Source: Parasphaerochaeta coccoides DSM 17374 (GTDB taxonomy: Bacteria; Spirochaetota; Spirochaetia; Sphaerochaetales; Sphaerochaetaceae). Taken from it: 64,000 bases of DNA. The translations under genes were made by a program, and so were the position numbers. Below the pieces are notes generated by a model. That model was not told where the DNA came from. It ran no database searches and saw only the letters and a list, made by a program, of their open reading frames with translations. Position 1 is the first letter of the stretch. Every line of letters starts with the position of its first letter. Shown here piece after piece: positions 42,879 to 53,245 of the stretch. Where the stretch lies: the NCBI RefSeq assembly GCF_000208385.1, contig NC_015436.1, forward strand, positions 1,054,001-1,118,000. Reading direction: 5' to 3'.

Positions 42879-43270
<392 letters not shown>

Positions 43271-43281
43271 GAGCCCTGCGT

Positions 43282-45690
43282 ATGAACAAATCTAGCAGAC
43301 CAGTCTTTATAGTTCTTACGACCATCCTGATTCTTCTTGTCGCCTTTGTTTCATGCGCTGACAAACCGAACGTCTCAAGCTCCAACACAATACGCTTCAT
43401 CTCCGAGATAGGACGCAAGGCCACCGCTGACTCCGGCTGGAGTATCGGGGATGAAGTCGGCATCTACATGGTGGAGGCTGGTGAGGACGTGGCTACTGTC
43501 GCCGCGACCGACCGTGACAATGTGCAGTACGTGGCAGATACGGCGGACATCACCTTCTCCGCCTTCTCCGCGGCAGATGCCTCCAACCCCTTGAAGTGGG
43601 ATGACCTTAGTACAAATCCTGCACCATTCTTTGACTTCATCGCCTACTATCCCTATGTATCATCCATCGCTGATACCACGGCTCTGCCCATACATGTCTA
43701 TCCGGGTTCCGAGGAACAGGATACCGGAAAAGCTGACTTCCTGTGGGGAAAGAAGGCTGGTGTCCAGAACAACACCTCTACGGTCAACCTGACGCTCAGT
43801 CATGCCCTCTCCCGCCTTGTTGTCAACATCTCTCCGAGTACCACCGTTGATAAGGCTGCCATCACGGGCGGTACGCTTGTCGCCACTGTCACGGGCATCA
43901 ACACGCAGGCAACAATCGACCTGGACAGCGGAGATGTGGCTCCTGTAATCCCTAGCGACATTGATGTCGTCATGAAGGACATCTCCGGCACGCTCACGGA
44001 TGCGGAGAGGACTGCGGGCAAGCGGCGCTATGAAGCCGTGCTGATACCGACGGACAACGTTACCGCCCTGTCCTCCCTTGGTCTGCGTTTCACCTTGGGT
44101 GGCGAGACATACGAGTGGGCTGCTTCCAGCGTAGCGTCCTCCGATGAGTACAGGATTGTCTTGGAGAGCGGCAAGACGCATGTCTACAACATGACGCTCA
44201 ATACGGCGGCGGATGAAGTCGCCGTCGCGGAGATTCTCATAGGGATAGTGGACTGGGACACCGGGAGCGGGGTGAACGCAGCGGCAACCAAGGCATACAG
44301 CCTCACCTTTGGAGCCAACGAAGCCACGAGAGGCAGTGCTCCGGGACGGATGTATGCTCATGAGGGAAGCCAGGTCACGTTGCCGACTCCTGGAACATTG
44401 GAAAAGGATATCCATAACTTCTACGGATGGAATACCGAGATTGATGGCAGCGGAGATTCATATGCCGCTGGTGAGTCCTTCACCATGCCCGCCAATGATG
44501 TGACGTTGTATGCGCGGTGGGTGGTGAAGGTCAAGTCAGTCTCCGCCGGAAACAATTTCACGATGATTCTGGCAGAGGACGGTACACTCTGGGGGGTAGG
44601 ATACAACGAATATGGCCAACTGGGTGACGGCACTTTCGGCTATTCGAACAACAGAAACACGCCCGTGCGGGTCAAGGCCAGTACCGATCCCGACGACTTC
44701 ATGACCAATGTCGAGGCTGTCTCTGCTGGATACCTCCATACGATGATTGTGAAGGAGAACGGCACGCTCTGGGCGACGGGATACAACGAATATGGTGAAC
44801 TGGGTCTGGGTGGCAACTTTCCCGGAACCAACAGAAGCACGCCCGAACAGGTCACGGTCATGGGGACTACTGTCGACGATGTCTTTACCGGATATTATCA
44901 CACGTTAATCCTGGAGACGGACGGCGCACTCTGGGCGACGGGATACAACTATTATGGTCAACTGGGTGACGGCACTACGACCAACAAAAGCACGCCCGTA
45001 GAGGTCTGGAATTCTATCGATGGTACCGAGCTCATGACTGACGTCACGATTGTCTCCGCCGGAGCTTATCACACAATGATTATGAATGACGGCACGCTCT
45101 GGGCGGTCGGACGGAACAATTTTGGTCAACTGGGCATCGGCACTTCAGACGACTCGAACTTCACAGGCATACCCGTGGAGGTTCCATCCATGAATACTGA
45201 TCCGGACAATCCTGTCGTGGCTGTCTCTGCCAGATCCATGTACACGATGTTCCTGAAGGAAGACGGCACGCTCTGGGCGACTGGAAACAACAGTTCTGGC
45301 CAACTGGGTATCGGCACTACGACCAACAAAAGTACTCCCGTGGAGGTCTGGGATTCTACCGATGGTGACGTGAAAATGACTAATGTCAAGGCGGTCTCTG
45401 CCGGATTCACCCATACGATGATCCTGAAGAATGACGGCACGCTCTGGGCGACTGGAAACAACAGTTCTGGTCAACTGGGTGTCGGTGATAATACCAACAG
45501 AAGCACTCCCGTGAAGGTCACGTCCATGGGTTCTGATGTCGAGGCTGTCTCCGCCGGGAATTCCCACACGTTGATCCTGAAGAAGGACGGCACGCTCTGG
45601 GCGACTGGATACAACCTATATGGTCAACTGGGTCTAGGTAACAGCGGTTCGGGAACCAACAGAAACACGCCCGTGCAGGTAGTTTTCTGA
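43282..45690 (+). CDS. Surface lipoprotein: fimbrillin-like, InlB-B repeat and seven RCC1 repeats
   Basis: 802 residues from ATG 43282. The signal peptide ends in AFVSC (Cys about 24), a spirochaete-type lipobox. Residues about 35-310 look like the fimbrillin/Mfa-like family of Bacteroidetes (GWSIGDEVGIYM, FIAYYPYV, DFLWGKK, LTLSHALSRLVVNI). About 325-410 is an InlB-B/Flg_new repeat (FYGWNTEIDGSGDSYAAG, ending TLYARW). From about 415 to the end are seven RCC1 units, each with SAG..HTM...DGTLWATG.N..GQLG. RCC1 repeats form a beta-propeller, here probably extracellular. Expression may be phase-variable through the upstream GA tract. The domain mix and AT-rich borders suggest horizontal acquisition. 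Which start codon is used is uncertain. Confidence 0.85.
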   Translation: MNKSSRPVFIVLTTILILLVAFVSCADKPNVSSSNTIRFISEIGRKATADSGWSIGDEVGIYMVEAGEDVATVAATDRDNVQYVADTADITFSAFSAADASNPLKWDDLSTNPAPFFDFIAYYPYVSSIADTTALPIHVYPGSEEQDTGKADFLWGKKAGVQNNTSTVNLTLSHALSRLVVNISPSTTVDKAAITGGTLVATVTGINTQATIDLDSGDVAPVIPSDIDVVMKDISGTLTDAERTAGKRRYEAVLIPTDNVTALSSLGLRFTLGGETYEWAASSVASSDEYRIVLESGKTHVYNMTLNTAADEVAVAEILIGIVDWDTGSGVNAAATKAYSLTFGANEATRGSAPGRMYAHEGSQVTLPTPGTLEKDIHNFYGWNTEIDGSGDSYAAGESFTMPANDVTLYARWVVKVKSVSAGNNFTMILAEDGTLWGVGYNEYGQLGDGTFGYSNNRNTPVRVKASTDPDDFMTNVEAVSAGYLHTMIVKENGTLWATGYNEYGELGLGGNFPGTNRSTPEQVTVMGTTVDDVFTGYYHTLILETDGALWATGYNYYGQLGDGTTTNKSTPVEVWNSIDGTELMTDVTIVSAGAYHTMIMNDGTLWAVGRNNFGQLGIGTSDDSNFTGIPVEVPSMNTDPDNPVVAVSARSMYTMFLKEDGTLWATGNNSSGQLGIGTTTNKSTPVEVWDSTDGDVKMTNVKAVSAGFTHTMILKNDGTLWATGNNSSGQLGVGDNTNRSTPVKVTSMGSDVEAVSAGNSHTLILKKDGTLWATGYNLYGQLGLGNSGSGTNRNTPVQVVF
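44526..45690 (+). repeat. Seven RCC1 repeats (about 150-180 bp each)
   Basis: Each unit starts with a V..VSAG-like strand and contains GTLW(A/G)(T/V)G(Y/N)N and GQLG. Units begin near 44527, 44710, 44878, 45046, 45217, 45388 and 45538. Seven blades are the number needed to close an RCC1 propeller. Confidence 0.85.
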
Positions 45691-47997: not shown

Positions 47998-50388
47998 CTA
48001 TCTTTCTTCATCATCCCTGTTTCGACTCTCGGCAAATTCAAACCCATAGGGCCGGGGACCTCGCTTCTTGCTTTCCGTCCGGGGACGGTCTTCGTTGAAG
48101 CGCGGCCTGTCACTGTTGAAACGTGGCCGGTCATCACGGGAACGATCGAAAGGACGGTCGCCTCCACGCGGTCTGTCAAAAGGACGTCCACCCCTGTCAT
48201 CCCTGTCACGGGAGAACGACGGTCGGTCACTATTGAAGCGCGGACGGTCGTCACGGGAACGGTCAAAAGGACGTCCGCCCCTGTCATCCCTGTCACGGGA
48301 GAAAGATGGCCTGTCACTGTTGTAACGCGGACGGTCATCACGGGAACGATCGAAAGGACGGTCGCCTCCACGCGGCCTGTCAAAGGGACGTCCGCCCCTG
48401 TCATCCCTGTCACGGGAGAACGACGGTCGGTCACTATTAAAGCGCGGGCGGTCGTCACGGGAACGGTCAAAGGGACGTCCGCCTCTGTCATCCCTGTCAC
48501 GGGAGAACGACGGTCGGTCACTGTTGTAACGCGGACGGTCGTCACGGGAACGGTCAAAGGGACGTCCGCCCCTGTCATCCCTGTCACGAGAGAACGACGG
48601 TCGGTCACTGTTGTAACGCGGACGGTCATCACGGGAACGGTCGAAAGGACGTCCGCCCCTGTCATCCCTGTCACGGGAAAAACGTGGTCGGTCATCACGG
48701 GAACGATCGAAAGGACGGTCGCCACCACGCGGCCGGTCGTCATTGAAGCGCGGCCTGTCACTGTTATAACGCGGACGGTCATCACGGGAACGGTCGAAAG
48801 GACGGTCGCCACCACGCGGGCGGTCGAAGGAACGGCTCCCTCGCTCGTCATTGTATCGTGGCCGGTCACCATTTTTACGCTCATCCCGGCGTTCTTCAAA
48901 AGCCTTTCGTCCGCGAGCATTGTCACGGCCATTATCGGAGTCGTCTTTGGAAAAGCCCCTCTCAGCCTTGGATGCGGGAGACAACGCAGGTTCCTCACCC
49001 CACTCCAGGCTCAGGAAGGAATCATCACTATCCTCGTCCTCATCATCGTCTTCATCTATCACGGCATCTTCATCCTCGGCGAGGAACTCATCAGAATCAT
49101 CAGAAAGCTCTTCCGTGAGAAATTCATCTGTTGCCGCGGATATGTCCATTTCGGCCTTTTCTTCTTCTGAGATTTCTTCTTCCACGACTTCTACCTGCTT
49201 TGCTTTCCGGGCTGCCTTTTTACGTGGAGCAGGCTTTTCTTCCTGTGCTTCAGCAGAACCCTCGGAAAGGCTTTCAGCTGCCGCTGCCATCTCCTCAGCT
49301 TCCTTTTCTTTCTTTGTTTTCCGGGGTGCTCTCTTGCGAGCCACCGGCTTTTCTTCCTGTGCCACAATCTCTATGGCTTCATCGGCGCCTTGCGCCTCGG
49401 CGAGAACACCGTCAGCCACATCAGCGGCCAGGATATCTACATCATATTCCTTTTCCAAAATCCAACTCCTCGTACTTATTCTCCGGCGCGCAAAACCCGG
49501 CGCACGGACATCTTGTGTAATCTCTTTAAGCTCAAACCCCTGAATGCGGTCACCCTTCATTTTAAAACCGCTTAAATTCGTTGAGAAAAGCAATAAAGAA
49601 CCTTTCTTCAATAATCCATTGAGCAGGCGGAACCATTTCAGATGGTCGCGCTGGACATCAAAATCCTTTTTCATCCTGCGGCTATTCGAGAAACTGGGGG
49701 GATCGAAGATAATCAAGTCATACTTCTGCCCTTCCCAGAGAGCCTTTATGACAAACGCGTAAGCATCGCTCGTTACACAAGGCACCTGTGATCCAAAAAA
49801 ACCATTGCTGCGCAGGTTATTCACGCACCACGTGCTATACGTGGGACTCATATCGACGGAGACGACTTTCGCTGCGCCTCCGGAGGCGGCATACACGGAA
49901 AAAGATCCCGTATAGGAGAACAGGTTCAATACCGTTGCTCCATGGGCAAGTTCCCGCACCATCTGCCGCGTCATCATGTGGTCTAAAAACAGACCCGTAT
50001 CTATTCTCTTTCTCAACTCCACGGTAAAGGTCAGTCCATTTTCCTTTACCTCTACTTCACACTCCTCCTCATCCACAGCTTCATGCTGTTCACGTCCTTC
50101 CCTTTTGTCACGGGTATGAACCATGACATGGTCATCACTCACGTACAACATTCGGGAAACTACATCCACGCATACGTCCAGATCCTTCTCATCAAACCAT
50201 CCGTCACTGTAATCTGTAATCCGTGCGTAAGAAGCATATAGATCGACAGTCAGCGGAACAGATTCCAAGTTACGGTCATACACTCTCATGCAGTTGGTAT
50301 CAGTCTTCAACATGAGCCGACGCATCGCCAGCGCGTTCTTCTTAAGTATTTTTCCAAAATCCTTGACCGCAAAATCCTCTATGGACAC
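47998..50388 (-). CDS. RlmK-like 23S rRNA methyltransferase with long disordered repeat tail
   Basis: 796 residues. The start is taken as GTG 50388 with GAGGTG 7 nt upstream; the frame stays open far upstream through the insertion sequence, but that part is not coding. Residues 1-300 are a class I methyltransferase close to the RlmK half of E. coli RlmKL (m7G2069): MRVYDRNLESVPLTVDLY, LNLFSYTGSFSVYAASGGA (SAM site, about 152) and FDPPSFSNSRRMKKDF (about 226). From about 310 the chain is low-complexity: Lys/Arg/Ala blocks (ARKRAPRKTKKEKE), a strongly acidic block (about 390-450), and then about 300 residues of Asp/Arg/Pro/Phe/Gly repeats, including eight copies of FDRSRDDRPR. The tail probably binds RNA or self-associates. 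Fused catalytic and tail parts of this kind are not usual for RlmK. Confidence 0.85.
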   Translation of the reverse strand: MSIEDFAVKDFGKILKKNALAMRRLMLKTDTNCMRVYDRNLESVPLTVDLYASYARITDYSDGWFDEKDLDVCVDVVSRMLYVSDDHVMVHTRDKREGREQHEAVDEEECEVEVKENGLTFTVELRKRIDTGLFLDHMMTRQMVRELAHGATVLNLFSYTGSFSVYAASGGAAKVVSVDMSPTYSTWCVNNLRSNGFFGSQVPCVTSDAYAFVIKALWEGQKYDLIIFDPPSFSNSRRMKKDFDVQRDHLKWFRLLNGLLKKGSLLLFSTNLSGFKMKGDRIQGFELKEITQDVRAPGFARRRISTRSWILEKEYDVDILAADVADGVLAEAQGADEAIEIVAQEEKPVARKRAPRKTKKEKEAEEMAAAAESLSEGSAEAQEEKPAPRKKAARKAKQVEVVEEEISEEEKAEMDISAATDEFLTEELSDDSDEFLAEDEDAVIDEDDDEDEDSDDSFLSLEWGEEPALSPASKAERGFSKDDSDNGRDNARGRKAFEERRDERKNGDRPRYNDERGSRSFDRPRGGDRPFDRSRDDRPRYNSDRPRFNDDRPRGGDRPFDRSRDDRPRFSRDRDDRGGRPFDRSRDDRPRYNSDRPSFSRDRDDRGGRPFDRSRDDRPRYNSDRPSFSRDRDDRGGRPFDRSRDDRPRFNSDRPSFSRDRDDRGGRPFDRPRGGDRPFDRSRDDRPRYNSDRPSFSRDRDDRGGRPFDRSRDDRPRFNSDRPSFSRDRDDRGGRPFDRPRGGDRPFDRSRDDRPRFNSDRPRFNEDRPRTESKKRGPRPYGFEFAESRNRDDEER
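48105..48815 (-). repeat. In-frame tandem repeats encoding FDRSRDDRPR units
   Basis: Eight copies of FDRSRDDRPR, most embedded in a 29-residue (87-bp) unit with RP(S/R)FSRDRDDRGG-like spacers, are nearly identical at DNA level. The high identity suggests recent expansion and makes copy number unstable. Confidence 0.9.
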
Positions 50389-50499: not shown

Positions 50500-50538
50500 C
50501 ATAGTTTCGCAGTTAGATGACAGAGAAGGAGGGAAGTA

Positions 50539-50573
50539 ACTTCTTGTGAGGGAAGTAGCAAGAAGTTTTTTTT
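50539..50573 (+). terminator. IS-borne terminator upstream of transposase
   Basis: ACTTCTTG and CAAGAAGT flank a 12-nt loop and are followed by eight T, between the left end of the element and the transposase promoter. It should block read-in transcription from outside. Confidence 0.7.
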
Positions 50574-50599
50574 GCACTTTCCTGAAAACATTCATCAGT

Positions 50600-50629
50600 T
50601 TGGCATTGTGTGGCACTGTGAGGTATGAT
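50600..50629 (+). promoter_or_regulatory. Transposase promoter
   Basis: TTGGCA (50600-50605) and TATGAT (50624-50629), 18-bp spacing, with AGAAGAGG before the ATG. Confidence 0.45.
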
Positions 50630-50655
50630 ATGATTCTCCTCAGAAGAGGTGCCCG

Positions 50656-52461
50656 ATGTTCATCAAGATAGTCCCCGAAAACAAGAGCGGACGCAAACGC
50701 CTGGCCTATTACTCCGGCCATCGCAAAAACGGCACGGTGAAGCACTCCCTCGTGCAGTGGCTCGGCTATCTGGACGAGCTCCAGGCGCTCTACGATGACC
50801 CGGTGAGCCATTTCAAGGCCGAGGCGAGACGGCTGACGCAGGAAGAGAAGGAGCGGCAGGTGTCCCTGAGCGTCTCGACGGCCGAGCATTTCCACTTCGC
50901 CCCTGGAGAGGGGACGGACTGCACGGACCCGGAGGTGAGGGCGGACAGGATCCTCAGCTACGGCGTCCTGCCGCTGCTGAAGCTCTACCACGAGCTGGAG
51001 ATCGACTATTTCTGGAACAACAGGAGGCGCTACACCAAGGCGCTCTTCAACCACAACAGCATCTTCCGGCTGCTGGTGTGTTCGCGCATCCTGGCGCCGG
51101 ACAGCAAGCTGGGTACCTGGCAGGCGCGCCAGAGGCTTGCCGGGGACGTGGCCTTCAGCGCCGACGACGTGTACCGCTCCCTCGCGTTCTTCTCCCGGCA
51201 CAAGGACGCCCTCATAGACCATCTGGGGCGGATGGTGGAGCGGCAGTACGGGCGGGACACGGGCCTGCTGTACTACGACGTGACCAACTATTACTGGGAG
51301 GTGGACGCCGAGGACGAGCTGAGACGGCGGGGGGTGAGCAAGGAACACCGGCCCGATCCCATCGTGCAGATGGGTCTGTTCATGGACGCCGACGGCATCC
51401 CCCTCTCCTACGGCCTGTTCCCGGGCAACACCACCGACGTGGCCACCTTCCGCCCCCTGCAGCAGACGGGCCGGACCATCTACGTGGCGGACAGGGGCAT
51501 GATGAGCGGGATGAACGTGGCCTCCATCCTGCTGCGGCACAGCGGGTACGTCATCAGCTCGTCGGTGCGCACCTGCACCGCGGAGCTGCAGGCCTTCATC
51601 CTGAAGCAGGAGGGCTACGTCCATGGTGCCGCCGATGGAGATTTCAGGTACAAGAGCCGCCTGACTCCGGTCGAGCGTTGGGTGACCGATTCCGCGACGG
51701 GCGGAAAGAGGAAAGTGACGGTCAACGAGAGGCAGGTGGTGTTCTTCAGCCGCGCCTACCAGCAGAAGGCACGCCACGAGAGGATGAAGAGCATCGAGAA
51801 AGCCCAGCAGGCGGCGGGCGGGGGGCAGAACACCGTACTGAACAACCATGCGGGGAGACGGTTCCTGAAGAAGAGCATCTTCGACGGGGCCTCCGGAGAG
51901 CGCGTGGAAGCTCCTGAGTTCTCTGTCTCCCTGGATACGGAGCTGCTACAGCGGGAGGAGGCGCTGGACGGCTATTACCTTATCTGCACCAACGTGGTAG
52001 GCACCGAGGAGGGGGAGCCCCCCTTCGCTGGGCGGGCCCGTTTCCGCAGGGACAACCTCTTCGAGCTGAACCGACCAGTGGACGACGTGGACATCATCGA
52101 CATGTACCGGGGCCTGTGGCGCATCGAGGAATGCTTCCGCATCACCAAGACGCACCTGGAGGCCCGTCCGGTCTATGTGCGTACCCGCGACAGCATCGAG
52201 GCTCATTTCCTCACCTGTTTCGTCTCCCTGCTGCTCCTGCGGCTTCTGGAGAAGAGGACGGGGGGAACCATGTCCGTGGGCCGGATGGTGGATTCTCTGC
52301 GCCAGGCCCTGCTGGGCGACATCGAAGGGCAATGCTTCATGAACCTGTACTGCGACCCCGTCATCCAGGACATCGGCGCAGCCCTGGACATCGACATGAG
52401 CCGGAAGTATTACGCGAAAGCCGATGTGAGGGCACTTTTTGCGGCAGTGAAGAAGACCTGA
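50656..52461 (+). CDS. IS1634-family DDE transposase
   Basis: 601-residue cut-and-paste transposase of the IS4 superfamily, IS1634 branch. The catalytic residues can be placed: Asp208 in LLYYDVTNYYWE, Asp279 in IYVADRGMMSG, and Glu491 in YRGLWRIEECFRITK, where Y484, E491 and K498 match the IS4 Y-R-E-K signature. GVSKEHRPDPIVQMGLFMD (about 230-248) is the family hallmark. The frame is intact and full length, so the enzyme may be active. GC content is much higher than that of the host genes, a sign of foreign origin. An accidental frame runs open on the opposite strand along most of the gene. Confidence 0.96.
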   Translation: MFIKIVPENKSGRKRLAYYSGHRKNGTVKHSLVQWLGYLDELQALYDDPVSHFKAEARRLTQEEKERQVSLSVSTAEHFHFAPGEGTDCTDPEVRADRILSYGVLPLLKLYHELEIDYFWNNRRRYTKALFNHNSIFRLLVCSRILAPDSKLGTWQARQRLAGDVAFSADDVYRSLAFFSRHKDALIDHLGRMVERQYGRDTGLLYYDVTNYYWEVDAEDELRRRGVSKEHRPDPIVQMGLFMDADGIPLSYGLFPGNTTDVATFRPLQQTGRTIYVADRGMMSGMNVASILLRHSGYVISSSVRTCTAELQAFILKQEGYVHGAADGDFRYKSRLTPVERWVTDSATGGKRKVTVNERQVVFFSRAYQQKARHERMKSIEKAQQAAGGGQNTVLNNHAGRRFLKKSIFDGASGERVEAPEFSVSLDTELLQREEALDGYYLICTNVVGTEEGEPPFAGRARFRRDNLFELNRPVDDVDIIDMYRGLWRIEECFRITKTHLEARPVYVRTRDSIEAHFLTCFVSLLLLRLLEKRTGGTMSVGRMVDSLRQALLGDIEGQCFMNLYCDPVIQDIGAALDIDMSRKYYAKADVRALFAAVKKT

Positions 52462-52556
52462 TGCCACACACATGAATGTTATAGCATCTTGTCAGTAACC
52501 CCTTGCATTAGAATGAGTACGGATGTTTTTTCGCTTTTTTAACTGCGAAACTCAGG

Positions 52557-52644
52557 GTATATCGCATACCATCACAACACACAATATACTTGTAAGATAA
52601 TACATAAAATACTGAAAGAAAAGAAGTTGATATTTCACTACCTC
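52557..52644. repeat. Right copy of 88-bp target-site duplication
   Basis: Identical to 50412-50499. The remaining spacer to 52777 contains T/C-rich sequence and no recognised element except the ribosome site of the next gene. Confidence 0.95.
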
Positions 52645-52777
52645 AGTTCCCCTGCACTGCCTTTCCTTAGTTTTCCCTTGGTCTTTCCTTGACCTTTCCT
52701 CATGGGAAAAAGACATCTGTCATTGATAAAGATGGATGAATGTGGCATTCTATACCCACTTGGAAAAGGAGATTGCC

Positions 52778-53245
52778 ATGGATCAGAACGCCTACGATTT
52801 CATAAAGGAGTTGGAAGCGGAATATGGGCAGCCCATTGACTGGAAGACATATTCCATGTGGTTCGGTCGGTCGGATGGTACGGTCAGGGATTATGGAGTC
52901 CTTCTTTTCCGCATCGGCGATATCATGTACTATGAGGATTTTGAAAAACAACGCTCTATTCTCGGCTTCCAGCTCCCGAAAAAATCACATGCGCCCGCTT
53001 TTGTGAAACTCAAGGGCAATTTCTCCTGTAGGGAAGTCAAGGATATCTGCAAGGTCGTCAAGGCATCAGCCGCTACATGGCTGCGTACGCCCTCTGCCCC
53101 GCCGCTCCGTCCGGCAAGCAAGATTATCGCGCTGTTAAGACAAACGGTCACTATGATTACTATGGATGATGGAACAATGATGTTCTTCGAACTGCTGGAT
53201 GAAAAAGCATTCAAGGAAAACATCGCCCAGTACAAGGAGGCATGA
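52778..53245 (+). CDS. Conserved-looking protein of unknown function
   Basis: 155 residues, soluble, not recognised. The start at 52778 has AAAAGGAG 7 nt upstream; an ATG at 52736 lacks one. An N-terminal helix (NAYDFIKELEAEYGQ) is followed by alternating strands (YGVLLFRIGDIMYYEDF) and a Pro-rich central part. The gene ends 3 bp before the phosphomannomutase start, so it is probably translated with it. Before the IS arrived it was divergent from the methyltransferase gene. Confidence 0.65.
   Translation: MDQNAYDFIKELEAEYGQPIDWKTYSMWFGRSDGTVRDYGVLLFRIGDIMYYEDFEKQRSILGFQLPKKSHAPAFVKLKGNFSCREVKDICKVVKASAATWLRTPSAPPLRPASKIIALLRQTVTMITMDDGTMMFFELLDEKAFKENIAQYKEA

Follow-up and report, generated by a model that had tools for sequence, protein, structure and literature searches.

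The closest described relative of the protein reported here is the RlmK domain of Escherichia coli RlmKL (YcbY; 3V97, 3V8V), the domain responsible for m7G2069 of 23S rRNA, with which it shares its fold as well as its SAM and catalytic motifs. RlmI and RlmI-like SAM methyltransferases (3C0K, 3VSE, 2B78) belong to the same superfamily and match the protein more weakly. As far as its C-terminal extension is concerned, the nearest parallels are found on DEAD-box helicases and RNA-degradosome proteins, whose Arg- or RG-rich tails are likewise disordered and attached to an enzyme acting on RNA. The standalone RlmK-like proteins of other Spirochaetia, ~36-45% identical, include several that share locus and divergent neighbor with the tailed gene; they differ from it in having either no tail or a basic end of at most ~50 residues, with the C-terminal motif described below absent. 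In E. coli, RlmKL also plays a role in 50S assembly that is independent of methylation, and the protein accompanies DeaD, RhlE and SrmB on precursor particles (PMC11194073). This assembly effect is carried by the RlmL domain rather than by RlmK (PMC11194073)—an observation that counts against the model proposed in this study.

The gene examined lies within a 64,000-nucleotide window (i.e., the whole stretch of DNA that was analyzed) of a 2,227,296-bp genome assembled in one contig, the sole representative of its genus among the genomes compared. The coding sequence and its enzymatic part have the following features:

47998-50388, minus strand: whole coding sequence of 796 amino acids, with a GTG start at 50388 and the stop codon at 47998-48000
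49447-50388, minus strand: RlmK-like SAM methyltransferase domain (residues 1-314), from profile, sequence and structure matches
49885-49926, minus strand: SAM-site motif NLFSYTGSFSVYAA, aligned with E. coli NLFSYTGSATVHAG and near invariant in 47 orthologues
49672-49713, minus strand: catalytic-type motif IIFDPPSFSNSRRM, aligned with E. coli FIDPPTFSNSKRM

A GAGG sequence is located 9 nt upstream of the GTG, and the position of the start agrees to within two residues with that of the orthologues, which begin with M[DE][YF]xxKDFGKILK. The RlmK-like domain that an earlier note had read from this DNA was recovered: the protein matched NCBIfam NF008748 over the RlmK half only (E 8e-80), Pfam PF10672 (E 2e-28) and the E. 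coli RlmKL structures 3V97/3V8V, both in sequence (E 7e-55, ~33% identity) and in a Foldseek comparison (E ~8e-30), with AlphaFold2 pLDDT values >90 over most of the domain. The SAM motif and the DPPSFSNS motif, an instance of the RlmK-type feature DPP[ST]FSNS, are both intact, and the THUMP and RlmL domains are absent, the match being to the RlmK half alone. The gene product probably methylates RNA.

The more specific assignment in the earlier note, i.e., that the enzyme is the RlmK of position 2069, was not borne out by the comparison. A complete RlmKL fusion with intact K motifs is encoded elsewhere in the source genome as a separate 759-amino-acid frame, and in our phylogenetic tree its K domain clusters with E. 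coli RlmKL (support 100/99), with the tailed clade placed apart; on this tree, the tailed protein is not an orthologue of any characterized RlmK or RlmKL K domain. In contrast to the E. coli enzyme, it is a standalone protein, unfused to RlmL, with a 482-residue tail. Because the genome has its own RlmKL and the tailed clade is separate from it, the G2069 assignment is not supported, and naming the tailed protein RlmK of G2069 appears doubtful. The 23S rRNA sequence around G2069 is present in three copies (GGAAAGACCCCGTGAACCTTTACT) and is silent on which enzyme acts there. Most likely, the protein is a paralogue of RlmK that methylates RNA and gives the genome a second K-type enzyme in addition to RlmKL. 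A separate and more distant RlmI-like gene was also found in the source genome.

The tail accounts for 482 of the 796 residues (60.5%), in agreement with the polyampholyte extension of nearly 500 residues and about 60% of the protein that had been proposed, and it comprises basic K/A/R blocks, an acidic block, R/D repeats and the end GPRPYGFEFAESRNRDDEER:

49195-49353, minus strand: linker containing two blocks of basic K/A/R/P composition, at residues 346-362 and 384-398
48991-49185, minus strand: acidic block, closing with the acidic-aromatic motif DSFLSLEWGEE at 48991-49023
48064-48948, minus strand: R/D/P/S/G/F repeat region (residues 481-775) with 30% Arg, 22% Asp, well-mixed charges and pLDDT ~35
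48121-48798, minus strand: eight FDRSRDDRPR copies, at 48769-48798, 48682-48711, 48616-48645, 48529-48558, 48442-48471, 48325-48354, 48238-48267 and 48121-48150
48016-48060, minus strand: C-terminal motif GPRPYGFEFAESRNR, conserved among orthologues

Both composition and AlphaFold2, which gave the tail no order, predict a disordered, Arg-rich segment of low complexity, thereby supplying the disorder prediction that the earlier note had called for. Arg is strongly favored over Lys and Phe/Tyr residues are regularly spaced, and the charges are more evenly mixed than in shuffled sequences (kappa 0.03-0.12). Since Arg and Asp are nearly balanced, the tail is no plain polycation; these two residues dominate over RGG/RG motifs (14 RG in 470 residues, and between 0 and 30 RG in the tails of other lineages). 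The acidic-aromatic motif near the tail start recurs in many orthologues in a looser form (LxLxW with acidic neighbors), i.e., less strictly kept than the C-terminal motif.

The FDRSRDDRPR decamer occurs exactly eight times, as had been noted, and no 10-mer appeared more than twice in 5000 same-composition shuffles of the repeat region. The copies agree in 69% of their codons, against 36-45% expected from codon usage, and Tandem Repeats Finder identified a 204-bp unit with a 92% match. This codon agreement, together with the 204-bp unit, indicates DNA duplication, rather than convergence on a peptide, as the origin of the copies. An 8-mer repeated at least four times was found in 45 of 97 tails (three of these counts being runs of X), and the unit itself is specific to the lineage—e.g., DRDRPPRR, RPSYGDRP, GDRGGYGR or GQSDSRGG—usually in multiple copies within its own protein and rare beyond close relatives. 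The repeats are homogenized within each lineage and the middle of the tail evolves fast by repeat copying, which bears out the suspicion that the repeats were expanding or being homogenized.

We compared the tail across Sphaerochaetaceae, the spirochaete family to which the source organism belongs, as judged here from named relatives (Sphaerochaeta, Pleomorphochaeta, Bullifex porci and Ca. Ornithospirochaeta). An orthologue (E <1e-55) was detected in 126 of 139 family genomes and in 71 of the 75 of good quality; because the remaining four good-quality genomes are without it, the gene is dispensable. Nearly all family orthologues carry a charged Arg/Asp tail, 100-624 residues long (median 245, n=77 distinct tailed orthologues with a natural stop), with a median charged fraction of 0.56 and a net charge near zero. 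The tail is kept across ~20 genera, in complete and draft genomes alike, with the frame intact in nearly all of them. The earlier note had allowed that the tail might be missing from close relatives; this comparison of tail lengths found it family-wide instead, ruling out an assembly artefact or a recent oddity of one genome. In other spirochaete families, the orthologues stop 1-42 residues past the domain, and several of these tail-less proteins (e.g., L113, L116 and L117) are encoded at the same locus, divergent from a conserved gene of 150-170 residues, in most cases with a phosphomannomutase gene as well. The maximum-likelihood tree unites the tailed family proteins in one clade (support 100/100), and the simplest reading is that the tail was gained once, at the base of Sphaerochaetaceae. 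In one family member (G017, L106), the domain carries no tail; this protein falls within the clade on a very long branch of weakly supported position and likely represents a secondary loss.

A few proteins depart from this general pattern. Four members of other spirochaete lineages (L115, L122, L128 and L226) have short basic ends of 34-49 residues without the C-terminal motif, possibly separate starts of a tail. Two genes, L104 and L105, encode a Lys-rich tail of ~100 residues with no repeats and a degraded DPPxFSNS motif (DPPSVSLKHG), and they retain the C-terminal motif. In L034 (G110, a single large contig), the frame shifts inside the repeats, leaving the C-terminal motif in another frame—either a real event or a sequencing error.

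The strongest sign of tail function is, on sequence grounds, the conserved end peptide, which had gone unremarked in the earlier note. Tails of the family end in [KRVL]P[YF]G[FYM][DE]x[FI]xx[TSA][RK]x[RK] and seldom depart from it. In many cases FFW[LN] and acidic residues come next; the FFW[LN]DDE extension is missing in the source genome. The core [PLA][YF]G[FYM] is present in 74 of the 77 natural-stop tails, and each of the three tails without it is interrupted: by a stretch of N in L008, by an early stop along with an ambiguous base in L032 and by the frameshift mentioned above in L034. The motif was found nowhere else within these 77 tails, and one strong match per genome was obtained in the 11 genomes searched; a search of the source genome revealed no second protein with the same tail or motif. 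Pooled over 21 pairs of related species, pN/pS was 0.09 for the motif (a pool of 336 codons), 0.19 for the domain and 0.33 for the tail middle, the latter relying on a gapped alignment and some pairs having saturated synonymous sites. These values point to stronger purifying selection on the motif than on the domain or the repeats, and suggest that the tail is a working tether rather than junk. No match to the motif was found among PDB chains. AlphaFold2 assigned it a pLDDT of ~45 and left it undocked on the domain in the window protein and, equally, in a 515-residue orthologue aligned at the motif, such that docking onto its own domain was seen in neither protein.

The computational analysis shows that the tail is conserved throughout the family, probably arose once, is predicted to be disordered, has homogenized repeats and is under strong selection at its C-terminal peptide. 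We propose, with a probability of roughly one half, that the protein is an RNA methyltransferase paralogue whose selected, disordered tail would tether it to RNA or ribosome precursors and present a docking peptide. The parts that we infer are RNA binding, docking in trans, the pre-ribosomal location and the target nucleotide. A K-type enzyme in the Sphaerochaetaceae ancestor would have acquired a disordered C-terminal arm, composed of an acidic-aromatic stretch, fast-evolving Arg/Asp/aromatic repeats and an almost invariant peptide (KPYG[FY]DxF...R). The Arg-rich polyampholyte repeats could touch RNA weakly and many times, doubling as a length-tolerant spacer, and the peptide would dock in trans on a ribosome-assembly factor, a ribosomal protein or rRNA, so that repeats and peptide together might hold the enzyme on pre-ribosomal particles. 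The selected end peptide sits on a variable disordered arm, hence the proposal of a docking peptide on a spacer, and a partner in trans is favored because AlphaFold2 leaves the motif undocked on the domain, which is weak negative evidence. By analogy with the assembly role of E. coli RlmKL, a pre-ribosome tether would be the most natural guess. Besides the part played by RlmL in E. coli, several observations weigh against the model: the low pLDDT of the undocked motif and its lack of a PDB match, the tail-less G017 protein, the good-quality family genomes that lack the gene, and the near balance of Arg and Asp. A more tentative idea, which we hold possible at best, is that the enzyme acts as the scaffold of a ribosome-assembly hub in Sphaerochaetaceae, its arm recruiting a ribosome-assembly or RNA-decay partner and its main role no longer being methylation alone. 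Possible support comes from L104 and L105, in which DPPxFSNS has decayed and the C-terminal motif persists.

The composition of the tail also invites other readings. The earlier note had proposed that it scaffolds an RNA-protein condensate, and the preference for Arg over Lys, the regular Phe/Tyr spacing and the repeats in 45 of 97 tails (runs of X included) agree with such a role. However, well-mixed charges, with kappa below that of shuffled sequences, usually weaken charge-driven self-association, and L104 and L105 keep the gene with a Lys-rich, repeat-less tail of only 100 residues, which makes a condensate unlikely in our view. We give somewhat less credence to an entropic bristle or solubility tail, a segment with no specific partner in which bulk composition alone matters: it would explain why composition is conserved while sequence and length vary, but leaves a C-terminal motif at pN/pS 0.09 unexplained. 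Action in cis, by autoinhibition or as an RNA-holding arm folded onto the active site, would fit a motif that occurs once per genome and in every case on the chain that carries the domain; yet the motif did not dock in either AlphaFold2 model and the spread of tail lengths speaks against a fixed geometry, so that this possibility ranks lower still. That the repeats lack any function, whether expanded neutrally through slippage or recombination or created as an assembly artefact, accords with their origin in DNA duplication and their differences between lineages, but is highly improbable, being largely refuted by the retention of the tail over ~20 genera with the same end motif and a frame intact nearly everywhere.

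Upstream of the methyltransferase gene, the window contains an insertion element, separate from the enzyme, between the gene and its divergent neighbor:

50503-52552, plus strand: DDE-type insertion element of 2050 bp bounded by 13-bp inverted ends, ~110 bp upstream of the methyltransferase start codon
50412-50499, no strand assigned: 88-bp direct duplication on both sides of the insertion, the other copy being at 52557-52644
52736-53245, plus strand: divergent neighbor gene of 169 amino acids with no Pfam family, found beside the methyltransferase gene across most of the family and in some tail-less relatives

Five copies of the element are present in the genome, two of the others with duplications of 118 and 237 bp and two without any. 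Long duplications are known for IS1634-type elements, and we take the element in the window to be IS1634-like. Since the intergenic region was duplicated, both divergent genes retain an intergenic copy. No Rfam family of structured RNA was matched in the region. Elsewhere in the window, a perfect (GA)32 tract (43195-43258) ends ~20 bp ahead of the likely ATG of an ORF (42916-45690, plus strand) for a putative lipoprotein with RCC1-like repeats, and looks like a candidate phase-variable leader.

In the literature searched, which included few subscription papers, no earlier description of such a tail on RlmK was found, consistent with the novelty suggested in the earlier note. Compared with the tails of DEAD-box helicases and degradosome proteins, that of the window protein has near-equal acidic and basic content, homogenized repeats and a conserved C-terminal peptide, and is carried by a methyltransferase. 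A DEAD-box helicase of the source genome (L138, G000:C1, ~341832-342332) has a basic tail that includes QDRPRRTDRYDF and bears some resemblance to the methyltransferase tail. This genome encodes two DEAD-box helicases with basic tails, which excludes that the methyltransferase tail substitutes for a missing one. An RNA enzyme with a disordered Arg-rich tail is of a known kind, and the new element is a conserved end peptide on a family-wide methyltransferase tail. Function is usually difficult to assign to a long disordered region; in this family, more than 100 orthologues share one build—a folded enzyme, variable homogenized repeats and a nearly invariant end peptide—alongside tail-less outgroups at the same locus. 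Such a family is a good natural system in which to test the origin of disordered repeat tails and what they do on RNA enzymes, and the end peptide provides a direct experimental handle as a concrete bait for a partner.
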